A stretch of DNA of 64,000 nt, taken from NCBI RefSeq assembly GCF_024499055.1, contig NZ_CP071249.1, positions 620,001 to 684,000 of the forward strand, read 5' to 3'. The position numbers and the translations under genes are program-made. Shown piece by piece: positions 7,109 to 58,796 of the stretch (within the stretch, counting starts at the first letter, position 1; the number at the start of each line of letters is the position of its first letter). The stretch is from Turicibacter bilis. GTDB taxonomy: Bacteria; Bacillota_I; Bacilli_A; MOL361; Turicibacteraceae. The notes under the pieces were generated by a model, which did no database searches, was not told where the DNA came from, and saw only the letters and a program-made list of their open reading frames with translations.

Positions 7109-7708
7109 TTAATTAATTGGCGTTAATTGAACTAAAACATCTGGATCAGTTGTAAATTCTGTTTTTACCATCATAATAATTTCATTTGTTTGTTCTAATG
7201 TCGGTTCTGATTGAGATTCAGATAATTGTAAATGAACTTGAACAGTCTCCTCGTTCACTCGAACTAAAACATCTGAATATCCTTTTGCTTTAATCATTGA
7301 TTCAAGAATACTTTCATGTTGTGCATCTTTATTAATTTTTTCTAAATTATCTTTTGCCTCACTTTTTTCTTCAGCATCAGCATCTTTGCTTGCAATAATG
7401 GCTGTTAAATCAGCTTGTAATTGGCTTTTAGCTTTAGCTGCCTCAGTTCTTTGCACTTGAATGGCACTAACCTCAGATGATGTTCCCGCTGTCTCTGTCT
7501 CATCATCTCCAGACTCTTGGTTTGAAACTAACTCACTTCCACTTTGAGCGTCTGTTGGATTAATCTCTAAATTTGCTTGTGGTAAAGTTGAGGTTGATCC
7601 CACTTTATTTGTTGTTGAATCGTTGCTATCTCCAATACTAATATAAAATACAGTTAATAATACGAAAACTACAAATAATGCGGCTGTTACATATGAATTT
7701 TTGTTCAT
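7109..7708 (-). CDS. spoIIIAH: stage III sporulation protein AH
   Basis: Mother-cell membrane protein whose extracytoplasmic domain pairs with forespore SpoIIQ to form the channel (feeding tube) across the two membranes. The 199-residue protein has an N-terminal membrane anchor (about residues 8-26), a long acidic, Ser/Glu/Gln-rich linker, and a C-terminal ring-building (EscJ/FliF-like) domain from about residue 100 (RTEAAKAKSQLQ to the end). It is the last gene of the spoIIIA operon; its ATG follows GGGGG and the upstream gene ends two bases before this gene's span. Confidence 0.92.
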   Translation of the reverse strand: MNKNSYVTAALFVVFVLLTVFYISIGDSNDSTTNKVGSTSTLPQANLEINPTDAQSGSELVSNQESGDDETETAGTSSEVSAIQVQRTEAAKAKSQLQADLTAIIASKDADAEEKSEAKDNLEKINKDAQHESILESMIKAKGYSDVLVRVNEETVQVHLQLSESQSEPTLEQTNEIIMMVKTEFTTDPDVLVQLTPIN

Positions 7709-7709
7709 T

Positions 7710-8162
7710 TTAATTTCCCCCTAGTTCAGATGCATTTAATAATGAAATTTGATGAATTGGAACATCAAGCAACAAACTGATGGCATGCGTCACATCATAA
7801 GGTGCTTTAATCGTCCCTCGATAGACGATCACAACGCCATTTGAAACAGTATCTGTTTGACTTGAAACAAAGAGTGTCGTTGAAGAATCAGCAACCGATT
7901 TATATGAGATATTTATACTATCGACTGTTACTCCTTCTATTGAATCAAATAAAGCTGTGATCTGTTCTTTGTGTCTTGCCTCGACAGATGGTGCCGAAGA
8001 TAAATGATTCCCAGACAGAGAGCTAAAATCATCTTTGAACAAGAATGACACCACTACGATGGCTCCAATCAGCATGATGATTCTAAATGGCCCTAGATCA
8101 GTCATTACCTTACGAATTGTTAAGCTTATTGACTCTGACTTTTCTGTCCGTTTCTTTTCCAC
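7710..8162 (-). CDS. spoIIIAG: stage III sporulation protein AG
   Basis: Second ring-forming component of the SpoIIIA-SpoIIQ channel in the mother-cell membrane. The 150-residue protein has a cytoplasmic N-terminus, a membrane span (about 29-43, IIMLIGAIVVVSFLF) and a C-terminal domain with the VVYRG and KAPYDVTHAISLLLDVP segments typical of SpoIIIAG. It is clearly shorter than the B. subtilis protein (about 229 residues), mainly between the anchor and the ring domain. The start is a GTG eight bases after GGGGG. Its stop codon lies next to the spoIIIAH ribosome binding site. Confidence 0.9.
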   Translation of the reverse strand: MEKKRTEKSESISLTIRKVMTDLGPFRIIMLIGAIVVVSFLFKDDFSSLSGNHLSSAPSVEARHKEQITALFDSIEGVTVDSINISYKSVADSSTTLFVSSQTDTVSNGVVIVYRGTIKAPYDVTHAISLLLDVPIHQISLLNASELGGN

Positions 8163-8215
8163 ATCTTCTACCCCCTATCTCACCTCATGTTAGATTCTAA
8201 TTTAGTTGCCTCTTT

Positions 8216-8701
8216 TCATCGACCTCCCCTCTTAAAAACGACATCCTCCCGATTAAGACCTAATTTATTGAGTACGCACGTTTTTGCCTCCTCCTCAGTC
8301 TCAACCATTTCTAGCGTTAGCACTTCACTGAAATCAAATCCCACGATTTGAACTTGGCATCCACCTTCAGCTTGACGAACTAATGTCTCAATCTCAGCCA
8401 TCGTTACTTTCGATAAATCAATTTCAACTAGCCCTTGGTAATACTGAATGGATTGATCAAATTCCTCTTCATTGATAAATGAAATCGAATCAATGAATGA
8501 ACTAACTTCATTATTCATTATACTAATCACCGGCTTTAAAATGATAACTATGATAAAAAAGTGAAGATAAAATGTAATTATTTTCTTATAGGAAGCCGGA
8601 ATAACCAATAAATTGACAATAGCTATCAAAAAAAACATAGCGATTATTTGCTTTGCGTATTCATATAGCATATCTTTTCCCATCTCCTCAAAACTTGTCA
8701 C
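8216..8701 (-). CDS. spoIIIAF: stage III sporulation protein AF
   Basis: Membrane protein of the SpoIIIA channel complex. Two hydrophobic helices at about residues 14-35 and 40-60 are followed by a soluble C-terminal domain, the SpoIIIAF layout; 161 residues is slightly short of the usual ~200. The start is uncertain: the GTG at 8701 lacks a clear ribosome binding site, and ATG codons at 8683 and 8671 follow GAGGAG; these would remove 6 or 10 residues without touching the membrane helices. Seven bases separate it from spoIIIAE. Confidence 0.86.
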   Translation of the reverse strand: MTSFEEMGKDMLYEYAKQIIAMFFLIAIVNLLVIPASYKKIITFYLHFFIIVIILKPVISIMNNEVSSFIDSISFINEEEFDQSIQYYQGLVEIDLSKVTMAEIETLVRQAEGGCQVQIVGFDFSEVLTLEMVETEEEAKTCVLNKLGLNREDVVFKRGGR

Positions 8702-8707
8702 CTAGAA

Positions 8708-9766
8708 TTAGTTAGTTAGTAGCATCATATTTGAACTATATAGAATAATGAAGAATGTAAAGATAAACATGACGCCAATAATAATCATAATGACGAGCAA
8801 ATTCATCATCCCTGTATTAAAGACATCTAAAATTTTAATATAATCTTTACTAATAATGGGTTGAATCACCGCTCCTAATAAACGAAATAAAATTAGGCTA
8901 ACACCCACCTTTATCACTGGGAATGCCACAATGATGACTAAAGTAATCACACTAAGTAGCCCAACACTATTTCTTAAAATGGATAACGTCGAAACAACTG
9001 AGACAACCGTATCTGTAAAACGCGTTCCGATGACAGGGATATGATTCATTAAGTTTTGTGTCGTTCGAAAAAACAATCCATCCGCAAAGCTAAGTGTCAT
9101 GTTTTGAATGGACATTAATGTTAAAAAAAAGGCAAAATAGCCACCTAACGTCCAAACTGCAATTTTATTAATAAACTCAATTAAACGACCGTACAAGTCT
9201 TCAATATTAATCTGATTAATAAATCCAAAAATCGTCCCAATGACTGTTAAAGGCATACTAATCGCGTTAATAAAGAAATAAGAAGCATTAATCAAAAAGA
9301 CAACCGCAGGTTTAAATAATGCCTGATTCCAAAGAGCACCTGTAATCGTAATCAACGATAATAAAATTGGAAAAATCGCGACGACGATATTCATATACCT
9401 CGTTAAAATATCTAATACATAATCATGATAAAAAATAAATAACTGAAAGAGCTGAACCATCAAAACTAGTTTTAAGACGGTATTTGTGATTTTCTCATAT
9501 TTCGTTGAAAACGAGGATTGAATATTTTGAAACAATGCGATAATCAACAAAAAAATTAAAATACTTTTAAATTGAGAAAAACCCGTGGATAATTCATGCA
9601 TCGCATAATCACCGAGTGATTGAAAAAATCCAACAATATCAAACTTCTCAACATTTAACAGATTAGATTTATCTAAGTAGTCGGCATTGATGAGCCAATC
9701 ATATTGGCTGTAAATCTCAGCCCAAATATTTTCAAAAGATGATAGATCCACACTTGCTCCATCCAT
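8708..9766 (-). CDS. spoIIIAE: stage III sporulation protein AE
   Basis: Polytopic membrane protein of the SpoIIIA complex, permease-like, thought to form part of the export apparatus between mother cell and forespore. The 352-residue protein shows about eight hydrophobic segments and the conserved middle part (FINKIAVWTLGGYF, SFADGLFFRTTQNLMNHIPVIG). B. subtilis SpoIIIAE is about 400 residues and begins with a cleaved signal peptide; here the first ~70 residues are hydrophilic and no signal peptide is visible. The ATG follows GGAGGGGG, so this start looks real. Identity is secure. Confidence 0.93.
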   Translation of the reverse strand: MDGASVDLSSFENIWAEIYSQYDWLINADYLDKSNLLNVEKFDIVGFFQSLGDYAMHELSTGFSQFKSILIFLLIIALFQNIQSSFSTKYEKITNTVLKLVLMVQLFQLFIFYHDYVLDILTRYMNIVVAIFPILLSLITITGALWNQALFKPAVVFLINASYFFINAISMPLTVIGTIFGFINQINIEDLYGRLIEFINKIAVWTLGGYFAFFLTLMSIQNMTLSFADGLFFRTTQNLMNHIPVIGTRFTDTVVSVVSTLSILRNSVGLLSVITLVIIVAFPVIKVGVSLILFRLLGAVIQPIISKDYIKILDVFNTGMMNLLVIMIIIGVMFIFTFFIILYSSNMMLLTN

Positions 9767-9793
9767 TGCTCCCCCTCCTAGTACATAAATTAG

Positions 9794-10177
9794 TTAGACG
9801 ACTGATAAGATAAGTTCAAACAGTGTAATAATCATAGGTAAACTATATCCAATTAAATATAACTTAACGATGTACTCAAACATCTTTCCGACATTTCCTA
9901 AACTTGCTTCCGTTAACAAAAAGCTAACGAATTCTGCATAATACACAATCCCAATTAATCGAATAATAATGGTCACATACTGCTGCTCTACATTAAAATT
10001 CAAAAAGACGTTAGTAATTTCTCCAATCATACTTGATAAGAGTTGTAAGGCCATCATAAAAAAATACGTCAGCAAAACTAAACTAAAGCATTTGGCGTAT
10101 TTTGAATTGACTTCATTTAATAATAAATAAATAATGGCACATGCAATTACGAGTGTAAGTATTTTGACAATATCAAT
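9794..10177 (-). CDS. spoIIIAD: stage III sporulation protein AD, apparent AUU start
   Basis: Small membrane protein of the SpoIIIA complex, homologous to SpoIIIAC. Conventional start codons would begin only at the TTG at 10075, giving 93 residues and cutting off the first membrane helix. The open frame continues upstream and encodes the missing family N-terminus (IDIVKILTLVIACAIIYLLL). No in-frame ATG, GTG or TTG exists there. AGGAGGGG lies six bases before ATT (10175-10177), and ATC (10178-10180) is the alternative. From ATT the protein has 127 residues, close to the usual ~130. Either translation starts at AUU/AUC, or the sequence has an error or mutation. Confidence 0.82.
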   Translation of the reverse strand: MDIVKILTLVIACAIIYLLLNEVNSKYAKCFSLVLLTYFFMMALQLLSSMIGEITNVFLNFNVEQQYVTIIIRLIGIVYYAEFVSFLLTEASLGNVGKMFEYIVKLYLIGYSLPMIITLFELILSVV

Positions 10178-10191
10178 GATGGCCCCCTCCT

Positions 10192-10398
10192 TTATAGCAT
10201 AAAAATCGTTCGTAAACTCGTCATTAAAACTTCAATCAGTTGGACAATAAAGACTAACATATAAACATACCCTGCTAGCATGACTAACTCACTTATTTCC
10301 TTTCCAACATCAAACTTTTTAAAAAACAATGCAATAAATCCAAGGATAAACGCAACTCCCGCAAACCTTAGTAATCCCGTTATATCAACTATCGGCAT
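10192..10398 (-). CDS. spoIIIAC: stage III sporulation protein AC
   Basis: A 68-residue protein with two membrane helices (about 8-25 and 37-60), typical of SpoIIIAC, a membrane part of the mother cell-forespore channel. The start ATG follows GGTGG. In other spore formers spoIIIAA (an ATPase) and spoIIIAB come first in this operon; here spoIIIAC is the first gene, and the 293 bases before it up to efp have no room for either. Thirteen bases separate its stop from the next ribosome-binding/start region of spoIIIAD. Confidence 0.92.
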   Translation of the reverse strand: MPIVDITGLLRFAGVAFILGFIALFFKKFDVGKEISELVMLAGYVYMLVFIVQLIEVLMTSLRTIFML

Positions 10399-12828: not shown

Positions 12829-14142
12829 ATGAAATTTGTGACCAATTTATCAGCAGAACGTTTTAATACTTTCGCTGCCAGCCATCAAAAAAATCACTTT
12901 TTACAAAGCTACGAATGGGGAGTCTTCAAATCAAAATCACCTGACTGGTCATTCGATACCGTCGGATTAGAAGATAAAGATGGAAACTTAGTTGCAGGAG
13001 CGCTCGTTCTGATTCGCTTCCTTCCGATTATCAAACGTCCTTTCTTATATATCCCACGCGGATATATTATTGACTTTAATGATGCTCAACTACTCCAAAC
13101 ATTCACAGAAGCGATGCGTCAATATGCCAAATCTAAAAAAGCGATCTTTATCAAAATTGATCCAGATATTAAATATGTTGATCGTACAGTTGATGGGGAG
13201 AAAGTTGAAGGTGCTGCCCCAAATAATGAACTTCTTCAAACTTTAACGAACTTAGGCTATCGTCACCTTGGATTCACTCAAGACTTTGATTCTAGCATTC
13301 AACCTCGTTATACATTCCGTTTAGATTTAACCCCTTCAGAAAAAGACTTATTACAAGGATGCCATTCTAAAACACGCTATAACATTAAGGTCGCTCAGAA
13401 AAAAGGAATTGAAATTGTTGAAGGAAATCGTGAAGATTTAAAAACATTTGAAGCGATTATGCGTGTCACTGGTGAACGCGATGGATTCTTAACACGCCCT
13501 CTCTCTTATTTTGAAGATATGTATGACACTTTGGCACCAAATGAAATGTGTAAACTTTACTTAGCTAAATTAAATACAAAACAGGCCTTAGCAAATATCG
13601 AAGAAGAATTAGCGCAAACCGAACAATCAATTTCTAATTTACAAGCTCAACTTCAAAATAAAGAGTTAAATGAGAAAAAGCGCCAAAAACTTCAAAACAA
13701 ATTAGAACCTGAGGCAAATAAATTAAAAAACTTAACGCAACAAAAAGAAGAGCTTCAAAAATTATACGAAGAGCATCCTACTGGTATCACAATGTCAGGA
13801 ATTATCGCGACTTACTTTGGTAACAAGTCATGGTACTTATACGGAGCAAGTGATAATGTGTATCGTGAATTCATGCCTAACTATTATATTCAGTGGCAAG
13901 CCTTCACGGAAGCTAAAAAAGCTGGCTATGAAATCTATGACTTCTTTGGAATCAGTGGAAAAACGGACGAGTCTGACCCACTATACGGTCTATATCGTTT
14001 TAAAAAGGGATTTGGCGGAGACTTTACTGAATTCATTGGGGAATTTGATTACGTGATCGATCCAATCGGTTATTTCGCTTGGACCAAACTACTCCCACAA
14101 TTTAAAAAATTCAAGAAAAAATTACGTCAGAAAAAGCATTAA
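12829..14142 (+). CDS. FemABX-family peptidoglycan bridge aminoacyltransferase
   Basis: Enzymes of this family use aminoacyl-tRNA to attach the first or later bridge residues (Gly, Ala, Ser) to the stem-peptide lysine of lipid II. The 437-residue protein has the FemABX plan: two GNAT-like domains with HFLQSYEWGVFKS near residue 22 and, after it, SKTRYNIKVAQKKGIEI near 180, and a long antiparallel coiled coil at about 250-315, rich in Glu, Gln and Lys, as in FemA and FemX. The C-terminal segment with DFFGISG and GLYRFKKGFGG is also typical. It faces murE1 across a shared terminator. Which amino acid it adds cannot be read from sequence. Confidence 0.92.
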   Translation: MKFVTNLSAERFNTFAASHQKNHFLQSYEWGVFKSKSPDWSFDTVGLEDKDGNLVAGALVLIRFLPIIKRPFLYIPRGYIIDFNDAQLLQTFTEAMRQYAKSKKAIFIKIDPDIKYVDRTVDGEKVEGAAPNNELLQTLTNLGYRHLGFTQDFDSSIQPRYTFRLDLTPSEKDLLQGCHSKTRYNIKVAQKKGIEIVEGNREDLKTFEAIMRVTGERDGFLTRPLSYFEDMYDTLAPNEMCKLYLAKLNTKQALANIEEELAQTEQSISNLQAQLQNKELNEKKRQKLQNKLEPEANKLKNLTQQKEELQKLYEEHPTGITMSGIIATYFGNKSWYLYGASDNVYREFMPNYYIQWQAFTEAKKAGYEIYDFFGISGKTDESDPLYGLYRFKKGFGGDFTEFIGEFDYVIDPIGYFAWTKLLPQFKKFKKKLRQKKH

Positions 14143-14176
14143 AAAAAGTGTTCCTCGATTGAGGAACACTTTTTTT
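14141..14176. terminator. bidirectional terminator between femX-like gene and murE1
   Basis: 16-bp perfect stem (seven A residues then GTGTTCCTC) with a 4-base GATT loop and A/T runs on both sides, between two converging genes. Confidence 0.9.
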
Positions 14177-15617
14177 ATCCAATTTGAAGTTTTTTACGTA
14201 AAATTTCTTTTGCTACTTCACGATCATCTAATTCAATATTTCCACTTTTCCAATATTGAACCTTTTCATGACCACGACCTGCAATTAAGACAATATCATT
14301 TTTCTGAGCTTTATTAATCGCTGCTTCAATTGCTTTAATACGATCAACAATGACTTCATAATGACTTTCTTCCATTCCTTGTGTCATTTCATTTAAGATA
14401 TCGACTGGGTCTTCTGAATGAGGGTCATCCGTTGTAAAAATGACATCATCCGCATAATCCACAGATAATTTTGCAATCACGGGACGTTTTGTACGATCAC
14501 GGTCACCTGGACAACCGATCACGACTTTAACAGAACTTTGTTTAATATCATTCACAAATTCTAAAACCTTCTCTACCCCATCAGGTGTATGAGCATAATC
14601 CACAATAACTGTAAAATCCTGTCCCTCATTAATAATCTCCATACGACCATCAACAGGCGATAATTTTGCAATCAATGAGACGATTTGTTCCATTGGCATT
14701 CCCGCTGCATAAGCCGAAGCCATAGCACCTAATGCATTATGCACATTAAATGTTCCAAGTAATGGTGTTTTCACTTCGTACTGACCTACTGGTGATTTCA
14801 AAGTAAAGGTCGTCCCAGATGTTGTCATCCTCACATCTAACGCTCTAAAGTCAGCATCCTTTTCAATGGCATACGTATAGAAACGTTGCTGAGCCGCTTT
14901 AAGTCGATTCACTAGTTGAATCCCATATTCGTCATCAAGATTCACAATTCCATAACCATCCGGCGTTAACATTGTAAATAATTTATATTTTGCTTCAAAA
15001 TATTCTTCCATTGTTGGGTGGAAATCTAAGTGTTCGGGTGTTAAATTCGTAAATAATGCAACTTTAAAGCGACAGTAATCCACGCGGTGAAGTTCTAATG
15101 CATGTGATGAAACTTCAATCGCTACATTTTGAACACCGGCTTTAACCATGTTGTTAAACGTTTGTTGTAAGCTTAATGGTTCAGGAGTGGTATTTCTCGG
15201 TTCTATAAATACCTCACCATAACGAATTCCATTCGTTCCAATGTAACCAACATGTCCCTCAAATCCACCTAGTAAATGTTCTAAAATATAGGCCGTCGTG
15301 GTTTTACCATTTGTTCCTGTTAACCCAAATAAATTTAACTTTTCAGTCGGTTTATTAAAGATTAAATGGGCTAAACGAGGTAACTCAGCTTTTGTATCTG
15401 CCACAATGATTTGTGGAATCCCTATATTTTCAATCGATTGCTCACAAACAATAGCAACTGCTCCCGCAACTTCTGCCTGTTTTGCAAAGCGATGACCATC
15501 AACTGTATACCCCTTAATACAGACAAATAAATCACCTGGTTGAACAAGACGGTTATCAGTTGAGATTCCCGTCACTTTCAAATCAAAATCTACATCAAAT
15601 AATAACTTAATATCCAT
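14175..15617 (-). CDS. murE: MurE-type UDP-MurNAc-tripeptide ligase with DDPH motif (murE1)
   Basis: Mur ligase adding the third residue of the peptidoglycan stem peptide. It shows the ATP loop GLTGTNGKTTTAY (about 98-110), EVSSHAL near 168, and the family's GCPGDRDRTKRP segment near 368. At the substrate-specifying position it has DDPH (about 397-400) rather than DNPR; DNPR marks diaminopimelate enzymes, while lysine enzymes have D(D/N)P(N/A). The fourth residue here is His, so the arginine that binds diaminopimelate is missing. Start at the ATG at 15617 (480 residues), seven bases after AGAGG. It is the last gene of prmA-rsmE-mtaB-murE. A second murE lies at 55160. Confidence 0.9.
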   Translation of the reverse strand: MDIKLLFDVDFDLKVTGISTDNRLVQPGDLFVCIKGYTVDGHRFAKQAEVAGAVAIVCEQSIENIGIPQIIVADTKAELPRLAHLIFNKPTEKLNLFGLTGTNGKTTTAYILEHLLGGFEGHVGYIGTNGIRYGEVFIEPRNTTPEPLSLQQTFNNMVKAGVQNVAIEVSSHALELHRVDYCRFKVALFTNLTPEHLDFHPTMEEYFEAKYKLFTMLTPDGYGIVNLDDEYGIQLVNRLKAAQQRFYTYAIEKDADFRALDVRMTTSGTTFTLKSPVGQYEVKTPLLGTFNVHNALGAMASAYAAGMPMEQIVSLIAKLSPVDGRMEIINEGQDFTVIVDYAHTPDGVEKVLEFVNDIKQSSVKVVIGCPGDRDRTKRPVIAKLSVDYADDVIFTTDDPHSEDPVDILNEMTQGMEESHYEVIVDRIKAIEAAINKAQKNDIVLIAGRGHEKVQYWKSGNIELDDREVAKEILRKKLQIG

Positions 15618-15638
15618 GCCATCGCCTCTCATTCACTG

Positions 15639-16943
15639 TTACTTAACCATTTCCCCTTGACAGATTGGATAATCTGCTTTCACAACTTTAACTGGTACAA
15701 CCTCTCCAATGAGATCAGGTGTCCCTTTAAACTCAACTTTCACATAGTTACTAGCATGCCCAACTAAGTACCCTTCATTTGTATGAGAGACTTCTTCCGG
15801 AATGACTTGTAACACTTTCCCTTCACATGAACTTGCATACTCTTTAGCTAATTGCTCACTTAATGCTAATAATTGATTCACACGCATTGACTTAATAAGT
15901 TCAGGCACTTGGTTTTCCATACGTGCAGCTGGTGTTCCATTACGAACTGAATAAGGGAAGACGTGTAACTCAGAGAATCCAATACGTTTAATTGTTTCTA
16001 ATGTTTCATTAAATAATTCTTCTGTTTCACCAGGGAATCCAACGATCACGTCTGTTGTAATCGCTAAGTTATCAAATAACTCACGTAATTCAGTCACTTT
16101 TTGTTCAAACTCAGCTAACGTATATGGACGTTTCATCCCTTTTAAAATCGTATCTGAACCCGCTTGAATTGGCATATGTAAATGATTTACAATTTTATCC
16201 GATTTCTTCATCGCTGCAATGACATCATCTGTTACTTCTGATGCCTCAATCGATGAAATACGGATACGTTTTAATCCTTCAATCTCAATTAAGTCTTGTA
16301 ATAACTTACCGAAGCTATAATCTTCTAAATCTTCTCCATAGGCAGCTGTGTGAATCCCTGTTAAAACTACTTCACAATGTCCATGTTCAACTAATTGTTT
16401 AACTTGTTCTATCACGACTTCTGGTTTTTGTGAACGAACAGTTCCACGTGCCCATGGAATGATACAGTATGTACAGAAATTATTACATCCATCTTGGATT
16501 TTTAATGTGGCACGTGTACGGTCTGAGAATTGTGTGACATTTAAAGTCTCAAATCCATCCACTTTAAAGACATTTTGAATTTGTGAAATAGGTTGACGCT
16601 CTTCACGATATTTTTGTACTAAGGCTGGAATTTGATCACGACCATGTGTCCCGATGACAATATCCACCCCATCAATATCCATAATCTCTTTTGGTTTCGT
16701 TTGCGCATAACATCCCATCACACACATCACGGCTTCTGGATTACGACGAATCGCACGTCGAATCACTTGACGACTCTTTTTATCTCCCGTATTTGTCACT
16801 GTACATGTATTAATGATATATACATCTGCTACTTCTTTAAAGTCTACTTTCTCATAACCTTCGTTTTTAAATAATTCCCATACCGCTTCTGTTTCGTAAT
16901 GATTTACCTTACATCCCAGGGTATGAAATGCTACAGTTGGCAT
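15639..16943 (-). CDS. mtaB: tRNA t6A37 methylthiotransferase MtaB
   Basis: Radical-SAM enzyme that adds a methylthio group to N6-threonylcarbamoyladenosine at position 37 of tRNAs. The 434-residue protein has the N-terminal UPF0004 domain (TLGCKVNHYETEA at residue 8, three cluster cysteines), the radical-SAM motif CNNFCTYCIIPWARG near 145 and a C-terminal TRAM domain. The ATG at 16943 follows AAGGA; an upstream TTG is too close. It is between rsmE and murE1 with short gaps, so probably cotranscribed. Confidence 0.95.
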   Translation of the reverse strand: MPTVAFHTLGCKVNHYETEAVWELFKNEGYEKVDFKEVADVYIINTCTVTNTGDKKSRQVIRRAIRRNPEAVMCVMGCYAQTKPKEIMDIDGVDIVIGTHGRDQIPALVQKYREERQPISQIQNVFKVDGFETLNVTQFSDRTRATLKIQDGCNNFCTYCIIPWARGTVRSQKPEVVIEQVKQLVEHGHCEVVLTGIHTAAYGEDLEDYSFGKLLQDLIEIEGLKRIRISSIEASEVTDDVIAAMKKSDKIVNHLHMPIQAGSDTILKGMKRPYTLAEFEQKVTELRELFDNLAITTDVIVGFPGETEELFNETLETIKRIGFSELHVFPYSVRNGTPAARMENQVPELIKSMRVNQLLALSEQLAKEYASSCEGKVLQVIPEEVSHTNEGYLVGHASNYVKVEFKGTPDLIGEVVPVKVVKADYPICQGEMVK

Positions 16944-16976
16944 CAAAATCAATCCTTTCCATACTCTTGTTGTCTT

Positions 16977-17723
16977 TTATAATTCTAATGCGTACGAAAT
17001 GGCACTTAAAATATAAATCGGTGCCGTTTCCGTCCTTAAAATACGTGGCCCTAACGCACAAGGTTTAAATCCTGATTGTAGTAATAATGTCTCTTCTTTT
17101 TCACTAATTCCACCTTCAGGCCCAACCACTACTAGCATCTTACCATTCGTTTGAATCTCCCTTAGTGATTGCTTTAACTGCGCTAACTGCCCTTGTTTTG
17201 CTGTTTCTTCATAGGCAAATAAACAAACATCATATTGTGAAGCTCGATCTAATAATTGCTTAAATGTATAAACATCAGTAACTGTCGGAACCATTTGTCG
17301 ATGCGATTGCTCTGCTGCTTCTTTGGCAATCTTATTCCAACGTTCTACTTTCTTACTCGCTTTTTTCGCATCTAACTTTACAACTGAACGTTCCATATTA
17401 AGTGGAATAAACTCACTAGCCCCACATTCCGTTGCCTTTTGAATCACCCATTCAAATTTATCACCTTTTGGTAACCCATGTGCAATTGTCACTTCAATTG
17501 GAAGCTCTGTTTGTGCTTCAATTACAGAGTCTAATGTAACTTCAATCTCTTGTCCATTCATTTGCTTAATGGTTGCAAAGTGACACGCTTTATCTTCATT
17601 ACATACAATAATTTGATCACCTGGCTCCATACGCATGACACGTGACATATGATGCGCATCATCACCCGTAATAATGGCACCATCCCCTTGAAATTGAGTA
17701 TTGTTTAAAAAATAGCGTTGCAT
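16977..17723 (-). CDS. rsmE: 16S rRNA m3U1498 methyltransferase
   Basis: SPOUT-class methyltransferase modifying U1498 of 16S rRNA. 248 residues with an N-terminal PUA-like domain and the C-terminal knot region: MLVVVGPEGGISEKE near 190 and ALGPRILRTETAPI near 225 form the SAM-binding trefoil knot. ATG seven bases after GGAGG. It lies between prmA and mtaB, the same order as yqeU in B. subtilis. Confidence 0.95.
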   Translation of the reverse strand: MQRYFLNNTQFQGDGAIITGDDAHHMSRVMRMEPGDQIIVCNEDKACHFATIKQMNGQEIEVTLDSVIEAQTELPIEVTIAHGLPKGDKFEWVIQKATECGASEFIPLNMERSVVKLDAKKASKKVERWNKIAKEAAEQSHRQMVPTVTDVYTFKQLLDRASQYDVCLFAYEETAKQGQLAQLKQSLREIQTNGKMLVVVGPEGGISEKEETLLLQSGFKPCALGPRILRTETAPIYILSAISYALEL

Positions 17724-24303: not shown

Positions 24304-25053
24304 CTAAAGGCTCTTAGATAAATAACGATGTAAGAATTCTTTTGTACGCTCTTGCGTTGGATTTATGAAGATTTGCTCAGGTGTGCCTTCTTCAGCAATA
24401 ACCCCTTTATCCATAAAGACCACACGATCACTAACCTCTTTTGCAAACCCCATTTCATGTGTTACCACAATCATCGTTAATCCTTCATCCGCTAACTGTT
24501 TCATGACATCTAAGATACCACCAACCATCTCTGGATCGAGTGCACTAGTTGGTTCATCAAACAATAACACTTCTGGATCCATACAAAGGGCTCGCGCAAT
24601 GGCAACACGTTGCTTTTGTCCTCCTGATAGTTGTGTACTACTACAGTTTGCAAATTGCTCCATTCCCACTTTTTTTAAATAAAACATCGCTTTTTCTTTC
24701 GCTTCTTCTTTACTTCGTTTTAAAATTTTAGTTTGACCAATCATACAATTTTCCAAAACCGTCTTGTTTTGAAATAAATTAAAGCTTTGAAATACCATTC
24801 CCACTTTTGTTCGATGATGATTAATATTAATATTTCCCTTTAAAATATCTTTTCCATGATATAAAATTTCTCCACTATCTGGATTCTCTAATAAATTAAT
24901 ACAACGTAAAAGGGTTGATTTCCCGCTTCCACTTGATCCAATAATTGTAATAACTTCTCCTTTTTTTACATGAAACTCAATGTTATTTAAAACTTCTAAA
25001 TTCCCAAAATGTTTTTTCAAACGATGGATTTCAATAATATGATTCGCTTCCAC
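24304..25053 (-). CDS. polar amino-acid ABC importer, ATP-binding protein (lysine-regulated)
   Basis: ATPase of a type I amino-acid importer. 249 residues: Walker [10 protein letters not shown] near 37, Q-loop VFQSFNLF near 88, signature [15 protein letters not shown] near 143 and Walker [15 protein letters not shown] near 163. Third gene of a binding protein-permease-ATPase operon whose leader holds a lysine riboswitch, so lysine (or a basic amino acid) is the likely cargo. No clear terminator was found in the 200 bases after it. Confidence 0.94.
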
Positions 25054-25064
25054 TATGATCCTCC

Positions 25065-25817
25065 TTAGTCAAGCGTATTAGGTACAGTTTGTGACGCTGG
25101 AAAAGATGTTTTAGGCAGATTCATTCTTTTCTCAATAAATCGCAAAATTTGCGCCGTAATCGTTGTCAACACTAAATAAATCAAACAAGTAATAAAAAAT
25201 GTTTCTGAATATAACATCGCACTACCAGCTACTGATCGTGATTGAAAGAAAACTTCAATCACCCCAATGACATTTAGCATCGAACTATCTTTGATATTAA
25301 CGATAAATTCATTTCCGATAGATGGGAATGAATTTTTGATGGCCTGTGGTAAAATAATGTATCTCATGGTTTGCGAGCTCGTCATTCCAATACTACGTGC
25401 AGCTTCAATTTGCCCCTTATCAATGGATTGAATCCCAGAACGAATAATCTCCGCCATATAAGCACCCGTATTCACAGAAATAATTACAATCCCTGCTGTC
25501 ATCGCATCCCACCCAAGGACAGGTCTTAAGGCATAATATAAAAACATTGCTTGCACCATCATCGGCGTTCCTCTAAAGAACCACACATACAACCCCACAA
25601 TCCAATGTAATACTTTTTTTATAGCCTTAACTCCCATCGAATCACGAGGTTCGATGGCAATGGCACGAATCCCTCCTAAAACAAGACCAATAACTAATCC
25701 AAATATTGTTCCCAATAAGGCTAATAATAATGTAATTTTAATCCCATACCAAAATAAATTAAAATTATTTGTAAATAAATCAAAAGCTTTCTCAAAAAAA
25801 TCAACTTGAAACATCAT
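25065..25817 (-). CDS. polar amino-acid ABC importer, permease
   Basis: Membrane subunit of the importer, 250 residues with about five hydrophobic segments and the HisM/GlnP-type coupling motif region [28 protein letters not shown] near its middle (about 145-175), which docks the ATPase. The frame is open further upstream into the binding-protein gene, but the ATG pair at 25817/25814 follows AGAGGG, so I use 25817. One permease gene implies a homodimeric channel. Confidence 0.92.
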
Positions 25818-25827
25818 AAACACCCTC

Positions 25828-26637
25828 TTACTCTCCTGTTGGCGCTGTTTCGCGTGCAGCATTCATCCATTCCTGACGTGTCGCTTCAGAAATTTGATCT
25901 AAAGCAGCTTGTACGTTATTAAAGAAATCTGATCCGCGGCTTCCTTCTTTTAACCCAATTGATACAGATGTATCTACATCAAATCCTTCCCCATCAGCAA
26001 AATGAATAATTGTTAAACTTGGATTCGCTTGGACAACTCCTTCGGCAACTGGTAATTCAGCTGTGATTCCATCAGACTCTCCTGCTAATAATGTTTGAAC
26101 TAATTCAGGATAGCTTGAACGTGGCGTTAAATGATTAACATCTTTGATTTGATCAATGATTTCATCATAATTTGTATTCATTTGTCCGATGACATTAGCT
26201 CCACTAAAGTCATTAATTGAAGTGGCATCCACATAGTTTCCATCTTTTTTAACTATCATGACCATTTCAGATTCAAAGTATGGTGTTGTAAAGTCAATTC
26301 CTTGTTCACGCTCTTCATTCGCTGTCATCCCTGCAATAATGGCATGAATTTCCCCTGATTGAAGTGCTGGCTGTAATCCATCCCAATCTAATTTTTTAAC
26401 GACTAATTCTTTCCCCAGCGTATCTGCAATTTGTGAGGCCACTCGTATATCATAACCATCACATAATCCCGCTCCACCAATTGAAACAGCTGTTTCCGTT
26501 TCCTTATCTGTTTGCCAGTTAAATGGAGCATAATTACACTCCATTCCTACAATAAATTGATCCTCTGAATTTGTTCCGTTTGCTCCACACCCAACTAACA
26601 ACGAACCTAATGCTAAAACTCCAATAAATTTTTTCAT
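25828..26637 (-). CDS. amino-acid ABC importer substrate-binding lipoprotein
   Basis: Family 3 extracellular solute-binding protein, 269 residues. Signal peptide with lipobox LLVGC (Cys near residue 17), so it is lipid-anchored outside the membrane. It keeps the usual ligand-binding features: YAPFNWQ after the mature start, GYDIRVASQIAD, and IIAGMTANEEREQGIDFTTPYF near 100-120. The ATG at 26637 is preferred over a longer frame starting inside the riboswitch terminator. Because the leader is a lysine riboswitch, lysine is the expected ligand. Confidence 0.93.
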   Translation of the reverse strand: MKKFIGVLALGSLLVGCGANGTNSEDQFIVGMECNYAPFNWQTDKETETAVSIGGAGLCDGYDIRVASQIADTLGKELVVKKLDWDGLQPALQSGEIHAIIAGMTANEEREQGIDFTTPYFESEMVMIVKKDGNYVDATSINDFSGANVIGQMNTNYDEIIDQIKDVNHLTPRSSYPELVQTLLAGESDGITAELPVAEGVVQANPSLTIIHFADGEGFDVDTSVSIGLKEGSRGSDFFNNVQAALDQISEATRQEWMNAARETAPTGE

Positions 26638-26670
26638 ATCAATTTTTCTCCCCTTTTGATTTTCTTCAAC

Positions 26671-26699
26671 AAAAAAAGTCGTGCTATTAAACACGACTT
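26671..26699 (-). terminator. riboswitch-controlled terminator
   Basis: AAGTCGTG pairs with CACGACTT (8-bp stem, 8-base loop) followed by seven T residues, between the lysine aptamer and the binding-protein gene: the expression platform of the L-box. Confidence 0.88.
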
Positions 26700-26719
26700 A
26701 CCTTTTTAAAGTCCGCTTG

Positions 26720-26885
26720 ATTAATAGCTCCTCTTCATTTCTGAAGGAGTGTTACAGGTATTCCCTGCAACCCCAAGCTAGGCATCTGCCAATGCTAGCT
26801 TTCGGCGATGATTACCTTTCTTATCTTTCACTGTCTGCCGACTCCAAATAATACTCTGATGCACCGCTACCTCTATACGATTTTT
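26720..26885 (-). ncRNA. lysine riboswitch (L-box) aptamer
   Basis: Reading the minus strand from about 26880, the conserved lysine-aptamer blocks appear in order: AGAGGTAGCGGTGCATC, AGAGTATTATTTGGAG, GTGAAAGATAAGAAAGG, ATCGCCGAAAGC, then the hairpin with GGCAG, GGGTTGCAGGGA and CACTCC, and finally AGGAGCTATT, which closes the P1 stem. Lysine binding should favour the terminator at 26671-26699 and shut off the downstream ABC importer. Boundaries are approximate. Confidence 0.93.
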
Positions 26886-52796: not shown

Positions 52797-54152
52797 TTAT
52801 TTATTCTTTAATTGTTCAACTAACTCAATAAAGTGATCCCCACGTGTTTCAAAATTAGGATATTGATCCCAACTTGCACAAGCGGGTGAAAGTAAAACAT
52901 GATCACCTGCCGTGGCAAGTTTAGCTGATTCCTTTACTGCTTCGTCTAATGTCTCTACTACGATACATGGCATCTGGTGCTCATCAGCTAATGCTTTGAA
53001 TCGATGTTTCGTCTCTCCAAATGTCACAATAGCTTTGATCTTAGAGAAATAAGGGAGCAATCCACTTAAGTCATGCTGACGATCTAATCCACCCGCTAAT
53101 AGAATGATAGAATCATCAAACGCCTTCAACGCTGTTTGAGTTGCGATTACATTGGTTGCTTTAGAGTTATTATAGTATTTAACACCATTCACTTCATCAA
53201 CATATTGAAGTCGATGTTTCACTCCTACGAATCGCTTTAACACACGCTTAATGGCTTCTGTGTCACAACCATATAATTTACTGACAGCAACAGCACCTAA
53301 GACATCTTGAAGATTATGGTCACCTTTTAACAAAATAGATTCAATATCAATAATCTTTTCATCCTTAAAGTAGACATCTCCTTCAGATAAATAAGCACCA
53401 TCGACCACACTTGTTAAAGAAAATGGAACACAAGTGGCTTTTGTACGTGATAATCCATTGACAATAACCTCATCTTCTGCATTATAAACACAAAACTGAT
53501 CAGCCGTTTGATTTGCAATTAAATTCAACTTTGCTTGGCGATACTCATCAATATCTGTATGATAATCTAAATGCGCTTCTGTAATATTCAATAGCAGTGA
53601 AATTTGCGGCGTAAATGAATCAATCCCCATTAATTGAAAAGATGATAATTCAGTTACTAATACTTGTTCTTTAGACGCTTGCTGTGCAACTAAAGACGCT
53701 ACTTCTCCGATATTACCAGCAATTAATGGTTTTAATTGATCTTCTTCTAACATTTCATAAATTAACGTCGTTGTCGTTGTCTTCCCATTTGTCGCTGTAA
53801 TTCCGATAAATGGTGCCTCACTAACATCATAAGCCAACTGCACTTCAGTTAAAATTGGAATCTTACGCTTGATGGCTTCCATTAATAACGGAACTTTACG
53901 ATATGGAATTCCTGGATTTTTCACAATTAAATCAAATCCTTGATCTAACAGTTCTAATGGATGCCCGCCTGTCACGACTTCGAATCCTTCTGCCATCATT
54001 TCAACCGCATCTGGATTGTCTTCTAATGAATTACGATCATTAATTACTACATTCGCTTTTAATTCACGTAAAAGTCGCGCAGCTGCTTTTCCACTCTTAG
54101 CCAATCCAATGACTAATACTTTTTTATTTTCGTATTTAATCGTCTTTTTCAT
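52797..54152 (-). CDS. murD: UDP-N-acetylmuramoylalanine--D-glutamate ligase
   Basis: Adds D-glutamate to UDP-MurNAc-L-Ala. 451 residues: N-terminal Rossmann VLVIGLAKSGKAAARLL, ATP loop GITATNGKTTTTTLI near 116, LSSFQLMGI near 162, NITEAHLDYH near 182, HRLQYV near 312 and the C-terminal LLAGGLDRQ and LLSPACASWDQYPNFETRGDHF. Part of spoVD-murE-mraY-murD; the next gene in the normal order (spoVE) is inverted. Confidence 0.97.
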   Translation of the reverse strand: MKKTIKYENKKVLVIGLAKSGKAAARLLRELKANVVINDRNSLEDNPDAVEMMAEGFEVVTGGHPLELLDQGFDLIVKNPGIPYRKVPLLMEAIKRKIPILTEVQLAYDVSEAPFIGITATNGKTTTTTLIYEMLEEDQLKPLIAGNIGEVASLVAQQASKEQVLVTELSSFQLMGIDSFTPQISLLLNITEAHLDYHTDIDEYRQAKLNLIANQTADQFCVYNAEDEVIVNGLSRTKATCVPFSLTSVVDGAYLSEGDVYFKDEKIIDIESILLKGDHNLQDVLGAVAVSKLYGCDTEAIKRVLKRFVGVKHRLQYVDEVNGVKYYNNSKATNVIATQTALKAFDDSIILLAGGLDRQHDLSGLLPYFSKIKAIVTFGETKHRFKALADEHQMPCIVVETLDEAVKESAKLATAGDHVLLSPACASWDQYPNFETRGDHFIELVEQLKNK

Positions 54153-54189: not shown

Positions 54190-55158
54190 TTAAATGGCAA
54201 TGAATAAGCCAATTACTCCACAAATTAATGCGATAGCCCATAAGAAGGTCACGACTTTCCACTCACTCCATCCACATAATTCAAAGTGGTGATGGATTGG
54301 GGCCATTTTAAAAATACGTTTTTGTGTACGTTTATAATAAGCAACTTGGATGATGACAGATAAAGTTTCAATCACGTAAACTAATCCAACGATGACTAAT
54401 AGTAACTCTTGTTTTAAGAGAATTGAAACAGCTGCAATGGCTGCCCCTAACGCAAGTGATCCCGTATCACCCATAAATACCTTAGCAGGATTTAAGTTGA
54501 AAACTAAGAATCCAAATAATGCGCCTACAACTGCAAAACAGAATAAAGCAATTCCAACTTGTTGTTGAGCGATGGCAATCATTCCAAATGTACCAAAAGT
54601 AATGACACTCACTCCACCACATAATCCATCTAATCCATCTGTTAAATTAACTGCATTTGAGAATCCAACCATCCAAAATAAAATGAATAATCCATAAACC
54701 CAATATAAATTAATATTAAATAAATTAAAGAAAGATAACTCTGTTGAATAACCGCTCTTTAAAAATAGATAGAAAAAGACTGCTGCTAATACAAGTTGAG
54801 CTAATAATTTTTGCTTTGGTTTAAGTCCTTCGTTATTTTTTCGAACAACGATAATAAAATCATCAACAAAACCAATCGCACCAAATCCGACAAGAGTTAA
54901 AAGTAGCATCATTAACTCATTACTCATTGTCGCATACTTCGTAAAGAAAACTGTTACTAATAAAATAACAACAATCGAGGTGATGAAAATAATACCTCCC
55001 ATAGTTGGTGTTCCCGATTTTTTTCGATGAGATTGCGGACCTTCTTCACGAATCGCTTGACCAAATTTTAAACGATGTAAAAAAGGTATGAAGAATGGTC
55101 CGATAATCGTTGCGATAAAAAATGAGAAAATTAATACAAATAAAGTTGATTTTAACAT
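54190..55158 (-). CDS. mraY: phospho-MurNAc-pentapeptide translocase MraY
   Basis: Makes lipid I by joining UDP-MurNAc-pentapeptide to undecaprenyl phosphate. 322 residues, ten membrane helices. Conserved: KKSGTPTMGG near 46, GFVDDFII near 97 (Mg-binding aspartates), NLTDGLDGL near 168, FLGFLVFNLNPAKVFMGDTGS-type loop near 218-230 (second aspartate motif) and APIHHHFELCGWSEWK near the C-terminus. ATG after AAAAGGGG. Confidence 0.97.
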   Translation of the reverse strand: MLKSTLFVLIFSFFIATIIGPFFIPFLHRLKFGQAIREEGPQSHRKKSGTPTMGGIIFITSIVVILLVTVFFTKYATMSNELMMLLLTLVGFGAIGFVDDFIIVVRKNNEGLKPKQKLLAQLVLAAVFFYLFLKSGYSTELSFFNLFNINLYWVYGLFILFWMVGFSNAVNLTDGLDGLCGGVSVITFGTFGMIAIAQQQVGIALFCFAVVGALFGFLVFNLNPAKVFMGDTGSLALGAAIAAVSILLKQELLLVIVGLVYVIETLSVIIQVAYYKRTQKRIFKMAPIHHHFELCGWSEWKVVTFLWAIALICGVIGLFIAI

Positions 55159-55159
55159 T

Positions 55160-56611
55160 TTATATACCCCTTTTTCTAATCACTTCTTCAACGACTATTT
55201 TATCATTAAAAGGAACAATTTTACCATTAATATTTTGGGTTTTTTCATGTCCCTTCCCTAAAACAACAACTAAATCATTCGGCTTTGCTTTTTTTATCGC
55301 AGCTTCAATAGCCTTTGCTCGATCCACAATCACTGTATAATTGACACTACTTGTTCCAGATAATAAGTCATAAATAATACTCAGTGGATCTTCATTTCGT
55401 GGATTATCACTCGTAAAGAACACATGATCAGATAAACGTGTTGCATGTTTTCCCATAATCTTTCGTTTCGCTTTATCACGATTCCCACCTGCCCCTAAAA
55501 CCGTAATGATCTGTCCTGTCGCAATAACATTTAAGCAGGTCAAAACTTGGAAAATAGCATCCGGATTATGTGCATAATCAATTACGACTGTCACGCCATC
55601 TTGGGTTTTTAAATATTCAAATCGTCCTTCTATTGAAGAGACATTTTCAATAAATGAAACGATTTTTAATGGATCATATCCTAAAGAATAAAAATAGGCA
55701 AGCACGGATAAAGCATTGTAAACATTATATTTACCGAATAAAGGAATAGACATTCGCTTCACAAATTCCCCTTTCACATAAAGCGAAAACTCGGTACGCT
55801 CTAACGTATAAACAATATCTTTGGCAAACAAATCTGCGTGAGGCTTGCAGCCATAGGTTAGAATACGTCCATTTGTTGCCCCAATAAAATAATCGGCATG
55901 TTCATCATCACAGTTTATAATGGCTACTTTATCTTCTTGATAATCACTCAATTGAATAAATGGTCTCATTTTGGTAAAAAGATAATCTTCAAATGTCTTA
56001 TGATAATCTAAATGCTCTGGGGTGATATTAGTGAAAATTAAACGATCGAATTGAATTTGATCCACTCTATTTTCTTTAATCCCATGGGATGAAACTTCCA
56101 TAACAAGATAGGGTAAATTATGTTTCACCCCTTCTTTTAATAAATCATTCAAATCTAAACTCATCGGTGTCGTATGTGTCGCTTTTTTCTTTTGTCCAAC
56201 CCAAGAACCATTCGTTCCAATTAAACCACTATCCACCCCTAAACATTCAAACACATGTTGAATCAGGTAGGTAATTGTCGTCTTTCCGTTCGTTCCAATC
56301 ACACCAACTAAATTAATATCTTTTGATGGGGTTTGATAATACTCATTTGATACGACAGCCAAAGCTTTTTTAGTATTGAACACTTGAAAGTAGGGAATAT
56401 CAAATGTTAAATCTTCTTCTCCAACAATGGCAATTGCGCCGTTTTGAATAGCTTTTTCAATATATTCATGTCCATCTTGATCCTGACCTTTAATCGCAAA
56501 AAAGACGCCCCCAGGTTCGATTTCACGAGAATCGTAAGCTAAGTTAGAAATAACTTGGTTTTCCCCTATAAATCTAATTCCTAACAAATCACTCATTTCT
56601 ACTAAATTCAT
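55160..56611 (-). CDS. murE: MurE, UDP-MurNAc-tripeptide ligase with DNPR motif (murE2)
   Basis: The cluster copy of MurE, 483 residues. ATP loop GVIGTNGKTTITYL near 103, MEVSSHGIKENRVD near 171, GAGGNRDKAKRK near 373 and DNPR at 402-405, the marker for meso-diaminopimelate as third stem residue. So this copy should be the housekeeping or DAP-type ligase, unlike murE1 (14175) with DDPH at the matching place. It lies directly behind spoVD with a 21-base gap. Confidence 0.95.
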   Translation of the reverse strand: MNLVEMSDLLGIRFIGENQVISNLAYDSREIEPGGVFFAIKGQDQDGHEYIEKAIQNGAIAIVGEEDLTFDIPYFQVFNTKKALAVVSNEYYQTPSKDINLVGVIGTNGKTTITYLIQHVFECLGVDSGLIGTNGSWVGQKKKATHTTPMSLDLNDLLKEGVKHNLPYLVMEVSSHGIKENRVDQIQFDRLIFTNITPEHLDYHKTFEDYLFTKMRPFIQLSDYQEDKVAIINCDDEHADYFIGATNGRILTYGCKPHADLFAKDIVYTLERTEFSLYVKGEFVKRMSIPLFGKYNVYNALSVLAYFYSLGYDPLKIVSFIENVSSIEGRFEYLKTQDGVTVVIDYAHNPDAIFQVLTCLNVIATGQIITVLGAGGNRDKAKRKIMGKHATRLSDHVFFTSDNPRNEDPLSIIYDLLSGTSSVNYTVIVDRAKAIEAAIKKAKPNDLVVVLGKGHEKTQNINGKIVPFNDKIVVEEVIRKRGI

Positions 56612-56632: not shown

Positions 56633-58540
56633 TTAATTGCCTAAATATAATCTAACTGTTCCACCTTCAATGGTACGTGAAAAGGCTGCTGGCTGTTGAG
56701 AAATAACTTTTGTCCCTTCACCGTGATATTCAATATTATACAGATAAGAAGATTCAATCTCTTTCGGCTCCTTCCCAACAAAATCTGGAACCGTTACATA
56801 TTTTGTATCTGTCCATAGATATTTTTTCTCAATTTGTTCTTCACGAGGTTCAACTCCGATATACGGTAGTGCCTCTGCTAAGATTGAACGGGCAATTGGG
56901 GCGGCAACAACTCCACCATACTGAACCGTGTTTTTCGGGTTATCAATTGCTACATAAACAACTAACTGAGGATCATCCATGGGTGCAATTCCAACGAACG
57001 AAAGAATATACTCTCCGCTAATATATGCTCCATCTTTTGCTTTTTGGGCTGTCCCTGTTTTACCTCCTACACGGTACCCATCAATATACGCACCCTTCCC
57101 ACTTCCTTGTGCACCAACCATTTCTAAGGCATAACGCATCGTTTCCGATGTTTCCTCAGAGATGACACGACGTTTGATGCTTGGCTCGCGTTCGTATAAT
57201 ACTTCATTCGTATAGGGATGCAACATTCGCTTCACAATATAAGGTTGCATTAAATTTCCACCATTTACAGCGGCACTCACTGCTGTTACTAATTGAATCG
57301 GTGTAACTGAGTTTCCTTGTCCGAATGATGAAGTCGCTAGCTCAACATTTCCAATGTTGTCTGGATTAAAGATAATTCCTTGAGATTCTCCTAACATATC
57401 GACACCCGTTTTTTCATTAAATCCATAAGCTCGAATGTACTCAAATAATTTCTCTTTCCCTAAACGTTGCCCAAGTTCAATAAATCCCGGGTTACATGAG
57501 TTCATAATGACTTCTAACATCGATTGATCACCGTGTCCACCAGCTTTCCAGTCACGAATACGTACTCCATCAACAATGGCATAACCAGGATCGAAAAAGC
57601 GATCTTCAAGCTTCATGACTCCTTCTTCTAACGCAGCAGAAAAAGTTACAATTTTGAAGGTTGAACCTGGCTCATACGTTGACCAAATTGGTAAATTTCG
57701 GTTAAAAATTTCTTGATCATAATCTTGATAGTTTTCAGGGTCATAGGTTGGCCGCGAGGCCATTGCTAAAATTTCACCTGTATTTGGGTCCATAATTATA
57801 CCTATCATTTGATCAGGATCATATTTAGCAACTGCATTATCAAACTCTCGCTCCAAGATTTCTTGTAAATGTAAGTCAATCGTCAGCTCAATATCCAATC
57901 CTCGCGAAGCGGGAGCATAATCATCTGAAAATTGTGGTAAAGAGTTCCCCTTGGCATCAGAAAAATATTTCCATACCCCGTTTTCTCCCATTAAGTAATC
58001 ATTATACACATACTCAAGACCAGTAATTCCTTGGTTATCGATTCCTGTAAATCCAATTGTTTGAGCTAATAAATTTCCATATGGATAGCTTCGTTTCACA
58101 TCATTCACCAGATATACCCCATCCAAATTAGCCTCTTGAATAGCTTGAACTTGCTCAAGTGAAAGTTTACGTCCTTCAGGCTGTATTCTTTCAATGGAAA
58201 CACCATGTGTGACATGCCTTTTCGCTTCTTCTACGCTTACTTCTAACACTTCAGCTAAGACTTCAGACGTTCTATCAACATCTGTGACTTGCTTTGGGAT
58301 GACAATCACAGATGGTGCCACCTCATTTTCAACAATTGCATCATGATTTCGATCATAAATAATACCACGTTGTCCTTCAATCGGTAAATTTCGTGACCAT
58401 AACGATTCGGCTCGGTCAACCAATGTCCCTGAATTAAAAATTTGCAAATACGCAAGTCGAATAAACAGTGCTATAAAATAAATTAAAATGATTGAGAGCA
58501 ATACGACTAATCGTCGTTGTATAACTCCTGACTGTTTCAT
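56633..58540 (-). CDS. spoVD: SpoVD-type penicillin-binding transpeptidase (one PASTA domain)
   Basis: Class B PBP, 635 residues: short cytoplasmic N-terminus, one membrane helix (about 11-33), dimerisation domain, and the transpeptidase domain with active site STFK (Ser near 293), SCN near 348 and KTGTAQ near 490. A single PASTA repeat closes the protein (about 575-635). B. subtilis SpoVD, needed for spore cortex, has this one-PASTA layout, whereas the adjacent division PBP has two. A terminator upstream separates it from that PBP, and a mother-cell promoter candidate precedes it. Confidence 0.9.
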   Translation of the reverse strand: MKQSGVIQRRLVVLLSIILIYFIALFIRLAYLQIFNSGTLVDRAESLWSRNLPIEGQRGIIYDRNHDAIVENEVAPSVIVIPKQVTDVDRTSEVLAEVLEVSVEEAKRHVTHGVSIERIQPEGRKLSLEQVQAIQEANLDGVYLVNDVKRSYPYGNLLAQTIGFTGIDNQGITGLEYVYNDYLMGENGVWKYFSDAKGNSLPQFSDDYAPASRGLDIELTIDLHLQEILEREFDNAVAKYDPDQMIGIIMDPNTGEILAMASRPTYDPENYQDYDQEIFNRNLPIWSTYEPGSTFKIVTFSAALEEGVMKLEDRFFDPGYAIVDGVRIRDWKAGGHGDQSMLEVIMNSCNPGFIELGQRLGKEKLFEYIRAYGFNEKTGVDMLGESQGIIFNPDNIGNVELATSSFGQGNSVTPIQLVTAVSAAVNGGNLMQPYIVKRMLHPYTNEVLYEREPSIKRRVISEETSETMRYALEMVGAQGSGKGAYIDGYRVGGKTGTAQKAKDGAYISGEYILSFVGIAPMDDPQLVVYVAIDNPKNTVQYGGVVAAPIARSILAEALPYIGVEPREEQIEKKYLWTDTKYVTVPDFVGKEPKEIESSYLYNIEYHGEGTKVISQQPAAFSRTIEGGTVRLYLGN

Positions 58541-58602
58541 CTCTTATCCCCCTTATTGAATTGAATTAAGATTCGTTTATTACCTCTTCTACATCCATAG
58601 TA

Positions 58603-58631
58603 AATATATGAGTGCACGCTTGAGTAAATAC
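58603..58631 (-). promoter_or_regulatory. candidate sigma-E promoter of spoVD-murE-mraY-murD
   Basis: Minus strand: GTATTTA (58625-58631), 14-base spacer, CATATATT (58603-58610), resembling sigma-E -35 and -10 patterns. A related CATATACATT lies upstream of the SEDS gene. Weak evidence. Confidence 0.35.
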
Positions 58632-58750
58632 ATAATCCTTCACTTCAAATCCCTTTTATTCAAATTTATTACACTTATTTACTCTTTATGAAAACTATTT
58701 TTACTTCATGTGATGAATCTAGACTCATCTACTGCTCTCTATGTAAACAA

Positions 58751-58794
58751 AAAAAAGACCTAATTGCTCCGATATAGCAATTAGGTCTTTTTTT
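58751..58794 (-). terminator. terminator between the division PBP and spoVD
   Basis: About 18-bp perfect stem (AAAAAAGACCTAATTGCT with its complement), 7-base loop and T-run on the minus strand. Confidence 0.92.
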
Positions 58795-58796
58795 AT

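Follow-up and report, generated by a model that had tools for sequence, protein, structure and literature searches.

MurE genes and their neighbourhoods in the window

The window (the whole stretch of 64,000 nucleotides of Turicibacter bilis DNA that was analysed) contains two murE genes, murE1 and murE2, which are presented with their neighbouring features in Table 1. Both ORFs lie where the preliminary description of this DNA had placed two unlike MurE enzymes, and in the alignment the DDPH of MurE1 (D-type) and the DNPR of MurE2 (N-type) fall on E. coli residues 413-416. The two proteins share 37% identity over 471 aa and, as had also been described, are full-length with intact ATP loops (TGTNGKTTT in MurE1 and IGTNGKTTI in MurE2), each having all three Mur-ligase Pfam domains. 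These domains and P-loops, together with TIGR01085 scores of 515.7 and 475.8 bits (curated cut-off 257.3), place both proteins in the MurE family, and no other protein of the one-contig genome of 2.79 Mb scores above the MurE cut-off. The span of 15617-14175 earlier given to murE1 corresponds to a real ORF with its first ATG at 15632, but the second ATG, at 15617, has the better-placed ribosome-binding sequence (GAGAGG). The DDPH of MurE1 is invariant in all five members of the genus and in a second genus (G006), and the DNPR of their MurE2 likewise, so that the difference is not one of chance or damage.

Table 1. Features of the two murE loci and of lysine supply in the window.
Feature	Position	Strand	Evidence and remarks
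femX-like FemABX aminoacyl-tRNA:lipid II ligase	12829..14142	+	PF02388, E 4e-105; convergent with murE1
Bidirectional terminator-like hairpin, femX/murE1 gap	14144..14178	.	Sequence AAAAAAAGTGTTCCTCGATTGAGGAACACTTTTTTT
murE1, D-type MurE	14175..15632	-	ORF; TIGR01085; motif TTDDPHSED; synteny; AlphaFold model; probable start 15617
mtaB (MiaB-like methylthiotransferase)	15639..16952	-	ORF, synteny; conserved upstream neighbour of D-type murE
rsmE (16S rRNA methyltransferase)	16977..17723	-	ORF, synteny; conserved neighbour
Polar amino-acid ABC transporter	24304-26694		Riboswitch-preceded; ORFs, Pfam
Lysine riboswitch	26717..26883	-	RF00168, 69.4 bits; upstream of amino-acid ABC transporter
murD	52797..54152	-	ORF
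mraY	54190..55158	-	ORF; 1 bp from murE2
murE2, N-type MurE	55160..56611	-	ORF; TIGR01085; motif TSDNPRNED; ten pocket positions
spoVD, sporulation transpeptidase	56633..58540	-	TIGR02214, 738.7 bits (cut-off 688); directly upstream of murE2
spoVD upstream region	58541..58796	-	Terminator after preceding PBP gene and weak sigma-E-like elements
Terminator 3' of preceding PBP gene	58750-58794		In spoVD upstream region

murE1 is the last gene of the series grpE-dnaK-dnaJ-prmA-rsmE-mtaB-murE1 and, as reported earlier, adjoins a FemABX ligase. The full-length PF02388 match of femX (352 bits) and its relatedness to FmhB/FemX structures assign it to the FemABX lipid II aminoacyltransferases; the nearest solved chain is the S. 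aureus lipid II:glycine glycyltransferase FmhB (6snr, E 8.6e-77), and its 111 bits lie below the 500-bit cut-off of the FemX lysine N6-alanyltransferase equivalog NF047883. The two genes do not form one operon, because they are convergent, 32 bp apart and share a bidirectional terminator. Their adjacency is conserved in G001, G003, G004 and G006, and the link is family-specific, since other D-type families are without FemAB. S. aureus FmhB adds glycine to the lipid II lysine, but the gene found here is not diagnostic of lysine. Besides the lysine-type stems named earlier, Fem ligases can act on ornithine and LL-DAP stems, so FemX speaks against meso-DAP more than it proves lysine.

The murE2 operon does contain spoVD, as had been noted, in the order spoVD-murE2-mraY-murD. 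Expression of murE2 in growing cells too is probable, because the gene is co-directional with, and joined to, the essential mraY-murD. At -151 of spoVD the element TCATAAA-N14-AATAAATT has 12/14 sigma-E matches, which is not significant per sequence, and its position is conserved in four of the five genus members, with a variant in G002. It was not accepted as a sigma-E promoter: 12/14 matches also turned up in 8-12% of the shuffles for three species and 11/14 in 79% of those for one species, with G002 alone scoring above every shuffle, and spoIVA of the same species has a perfect sigma-E promoter in contrast to the weak element before spoVD. Also located in the dcw cluster is an ftsW/rodA-like gene (51182-52279, +) on the strand opposite to its neighbours, an arrangement conserved in G002, G003, G004 and G006. 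The SpoIIIA cluster at 7109-10398 (-) carries AC to AH but is without AA and AB; in five genomes of the family, no SpoIIIAA ATPase scored above the cut-off.

Both lysine and DAP are available to the cell, since lysA, lysC, asd, dapA, dapB, dapH and dapF are found in one cluster, and the ABC transporter behind the lysine riboswitch is a probable lysine uptake system. The two MurE types, the DAP and lysine pathways and sporulation genes are thus all present in the genome. A second DapF-like gene lies outside the dap cluster (G000:C1:1163400-1164203, L212; 180 bits, over the cut-off), and two such genes are present in four of the five members of the genus.

Substrate pocket residues

According to the structures of the S. 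aureus and E. coli enzymes, the second DAP carboxylate is bound by the Asn and Arg of the DNPR motif and the side-chain amino group by an Asp and a distant Glu; the pocket of lysine-adding MurE is more acidic, a property that favours lysine (Ruane 2013, PMC3829189). In MurE1 the Asp and Glu are retained, as is Arg389, but both carboxylate-binding residues are changed, Asn414 to Asp and Arg416 to His. MurE2 has the DNPR of meso-DAP enzymes, and its ten pocket positions are those of the B. velezensis and L. monocytogenes meso-DAP MurE. From these residues we infer that MurE2 takes DAP and that MurE1 takes a basic residue without a second carboxylate. The motif rule given earlier has DNPR for meso-DAP and D(D/N)P(N/A) for lysine; DDPH falls outside the published lysine motifs (DNPA or D(D/N)P(N/A)); its nearest characterised relative is the DDPR of T. 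maritima, the sole characterised D-type. Nor is the change of Asn414 to Asp required for lysine, since the S. aureus lysine enzyme retains Asn (DNPA).

Both proteins pass the NCBIfam DAP-ligase equivalog (MurE1 with 550.7 bits against a cut-off of 373). MurE1 reaches 362.3 bits, below the cut-off of 536, with the L-lysine equivalog PRK14022, so it is not filed in that subfamily and is only proposed to act like it; the DAP and L-lysine models are blind to residue 414. A rule based on Asn or Asp at this residue would correct the database names. The AlphaFold model of MurE1 (pLDDT 92) has S. aureus MurE (4c12, Z 46.8) as its best structural match, and the lead over 1e8c (Z 44.9) was set aside as a substrate argument, being too close and conformation-dependent.

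Compared with known systems, MurE2 resembles the meso-DAP enzymes of the B. subtilis group, L. monocytogenes and E. coli (1E8C), and the dcw order spoVD-murE-mraY-murD is that of B. velezensis; the difference lies in the second, unlike MurE of the genome studied here. MurE1 is like the L-lysine MurE of S. aureus (4C12) in fold, Tyr139, non-Gly386, the acidic pocket and an FmhB-like FemX partner, but the S. aureus enzyme has DNPA and SKGRE where MurE1 has DDPH and GRGHE and scores below the NCBIfam lysine-ligase cut-off. With T. maritima MurE (4BUB, L-/D-lysine) it shares Asp414 and the GRGHE loop, whereas that enzyme keeps Arg416, has Ser389 and Gly386, and is the single MurE of a non-sporulating bacterium.

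Two MurE kinds across the class

The comparison took in 85 MurE copies from the same GTDB class, spread over 58 wall-making genomes. The kinds were defined as N or not-N at residue 414 (E. coli numbering); what the comparison shows is that every not-N copy has D, with N in 35/35 copies of one kind and D in 50/50 of the other. Columns 386 (G vs A/P) and 139 (L vs Y) switch along with it, and Ala386 and Tyr139 are common to the S. aureus lysine enzyme and the D class. The phylogeny, proposed in the preliminary description as a check, clusters the N/D label, with four changes among 97 rows against about 33 with shuffled labels. The usual place of the N kind is spoVD-murE-mraY-murD, with spoVD directly adjoining it in 17 genomes, while the D kind is located at rsmE-mtaB-murE in families f1, f6, f9, f13 and f19, as in the window; no D-type MurE was seen beside spoVD. 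Two genomes (G063 and G105; loci L198 and L199) carry a tandem DDPH and DNPR pair within the dcw cluster, which is an independent origin of the same residue pair, so that the two-MurE state has arisen more than once. G017, a relative of these two without spoIVA, retains only the D copy, and G086, also without spoIVA, has an ENPR copy.

Relation to sporulation and DAP synthesis

spoIVA was taken as the marker of sporulation and DapF as that of meso-DAP synthesis, and FemAB was also scored. The N-type occurs in 32/39 genomes with spoIVA and 2/19 without (Fisher p 2e-7; this and the other genome-level p values overstate independence, the genomes being related), which means that spoIVA is found in 32/34 genomes with the N-type and 7/24 without. 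DapF accompanies the N-type in 27/34 genomes, compared with 1/24 of those without it (p 5e-9), and because 23 of the 24 genomes with the D-type only are without DapF, most of these could not supply DAP. Among D-type genomes, the N-type is kept in 22/29 with spoIVA and 2/19 without (p 2e-5). When collapsed to families, the association of the N-type gives p 0.03 with spoIVA and p 0.008 with DapF. In f19, spoIVA, DNPR and DapF all occur in one and the same genome only (G072), and spoVD, spoIVA and the N-type are jointly absent in f6, f9, f17 and most of f19.

Exceptions occur: seven genomes have spoIVA and no N-type (G039, G047, G070, G074, G084, G088 and G098), G107 has the N-type without spoIVA, and SpoVD without N-type MurE is also seen in the class. 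Of 30 genomes tested for DAP dehydrogenase, an alternative source of DAP, G107 and G019 alone have the enzyme. The correlation with sporulation is confounded by genome reduction in which DAP synthesis is lost. Three genomes (G014, G036 and G053) have DapF and are without LysA, so DAP is apparently made there for something other than lysine. An association of FemAB with the D-type (p 0.09 across the class) was not accepted as a general rule.

A possible lysine wall and DAP cortex

We consider it fairly probable that MurE1 adds L-lysine for the growing wall, which FemX extends, and that MurE2 adds DAP mainly for the cortex. The two would be an ancient MurE pair with different third-residue substrates, in which MurE2 (DNPR, spoVD-murE-mraY) would add meso-diaminopimelate and MurE1 (DDPH, rsmE-mtaB-murE) a basic amino acid that has no distal carboxylate, L-lysine being the likeliest. 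The changes of Asn414 to Asp and Arg416 to His would deprive the pocket of both contacts to the second DAP carboxylate and raise its acidity, with the Asp and Glu contacts to the epsilon-amino group retained. MurE1 would make the precursor of the vegetative wall, FemX would then extend the side chain of the lysine by an amino acid, and MurE2, together with SpoVD, would serve chiefly the spore cortex by supplying the DAP precursor. The assignment of MurE1 to growth and of MurE2 to the cortex is suggested by the correlations: the N-type is kept almost only in lineages with sporulation genes, and this pattern suggests that growing cells and spores differ in wall chemistry. Two stem-peptide types, as first proposed, are thus the best-supported reading, with the reservations that DDPH is no established lysine motif and FemX is not diagnostic; a functional switch, the other proposal, is unsupported. 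The more specific idea of a DAP cortex with a lysine wall agrees with the N-type adjoining spoVD, tracking spoIVA and DapF and being usually absent in relatives without sporulation genes, but not with the seven spoIVA-bearing genomes that have no N-type, and, with 1 bp between murE2 and mraY-murD, strict timing is only a possibility.

That last arrangement also fits an explanation that we regard as unlikely, in which both enzymes are active during vegetative growth, so that the wall contains Lys and DAP together or in a ratio that depends on conditions, and the sporulation link arises secondarily from loss of the DAP pathway in reduced genomes that do not sporulate. The weak promoter evidence at spoVD and the joint loss of DapF and the N-type in reduced genomes point the same way; against it stand the direct spoVD-murE(N) adjacency in 17 genomes, the joint absence of spoVD, spoIVA and the N-type in the families named above, and the dual-MurE genomes themselves, 22 with spoIVA and 2 without. 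Moreover, an FmhB-type FemX is not known to occur together with meso-DAP stems.

The substrate of MurE1 allows for further readings. Instead of L-lysine alone it may add L-ornithine or diaminobutyrate, or both D- and L-lysine like the T. maritima enzyme, which would leave the two-wall logic the same. This is rather improbable, given that the genome makes and imports lysine and that D-only genomes without DapF and LysA (e.g., G012 and G023) still have lysine for protein synthesis and no obvious ornithine supply; yet ornithine can fit acidic pockets, a plasmid MurE paralog of Deinococcus, a genus of the Orn type, likewise carries Asp414 and Ala386, and the closest motif, the DDPR of T. maritima, uses L- and D-Lys (PMC3829189). 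That both enzymes add meso-DAP, MurE1 being a redundant paralog with a drifted motif, is very improbable: the DAP-ligase equivalog accepts both and MurE1 keeps Arg389, but DDPH is invariant in two genera, Asp414 in 50 copies, and 23/24 D-only genomes have no DapF.

A lysine vegetative wall with a DAP cortex is known from Lysinibacillus (Bacillus) sphaericus (1970s work), a member of an unrelated class, with the same division of labour between two MurE-type activities as is proposed here. The literature search returned no paper on Lysinibacillus MurE, no published wall type for the genus Turicibacter and no report of a lysine wall with a DAP cortex for this lineage; the principle thus has a precedent. 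What decides between lysine and DAP at the third residue in different bacteria is an acknowledged open question (PMC4015370). A natural MurE pair in one cell, tied to growth and to the spore, would make it directly testable. Host NOD1 senses DAP fragments, and if the growing wall were without DAP, the cell and the spore of a spore-former would give the host different signals.

On a wider scale, and more tentatively, an early two-chemistry envelope may have existed across the erysipelotrich/mollicute lineage, set by the Asn/Asp switch at MurE 414. The pair would have arisen at least twice (the window type and the G063/G105 tandem), and loss of sporulation would have taken SpoVD, N-type MurE and DAP synthesis together, leading to lysine-only walls on the road to wall-less mollicutes; we hold this possible but somewhat doubtful.

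Other MurE-like genes

G005, which has no FemX and DNPR in both copies, was discarded as a natural experiment, since its other MurE comes from a contig whose G+C differs, and the MAG has 3% contamination. Its dcw MurE2 (L128:1-1620) is without the N-terminal UDP-binding domain and has the loop GKSGKST, so this copy is probably decaying or re-purposed. Loci of Paenibacillus, Bacillus and Virgibacillus (L009-L012, L014-L019, L021, L023, L025, L026, L028, L029, L045 and others) carry an extra MurE-like paralog with SDNPK and no R389 loop, e.g., GADGESGTEKRR. In L045 and L011 it lies 3' of a gene of 395-401 aa without a Pfam family, with an Asp/Glu racemase nearby, and these loci look like a separate peptide-ligase cluster.
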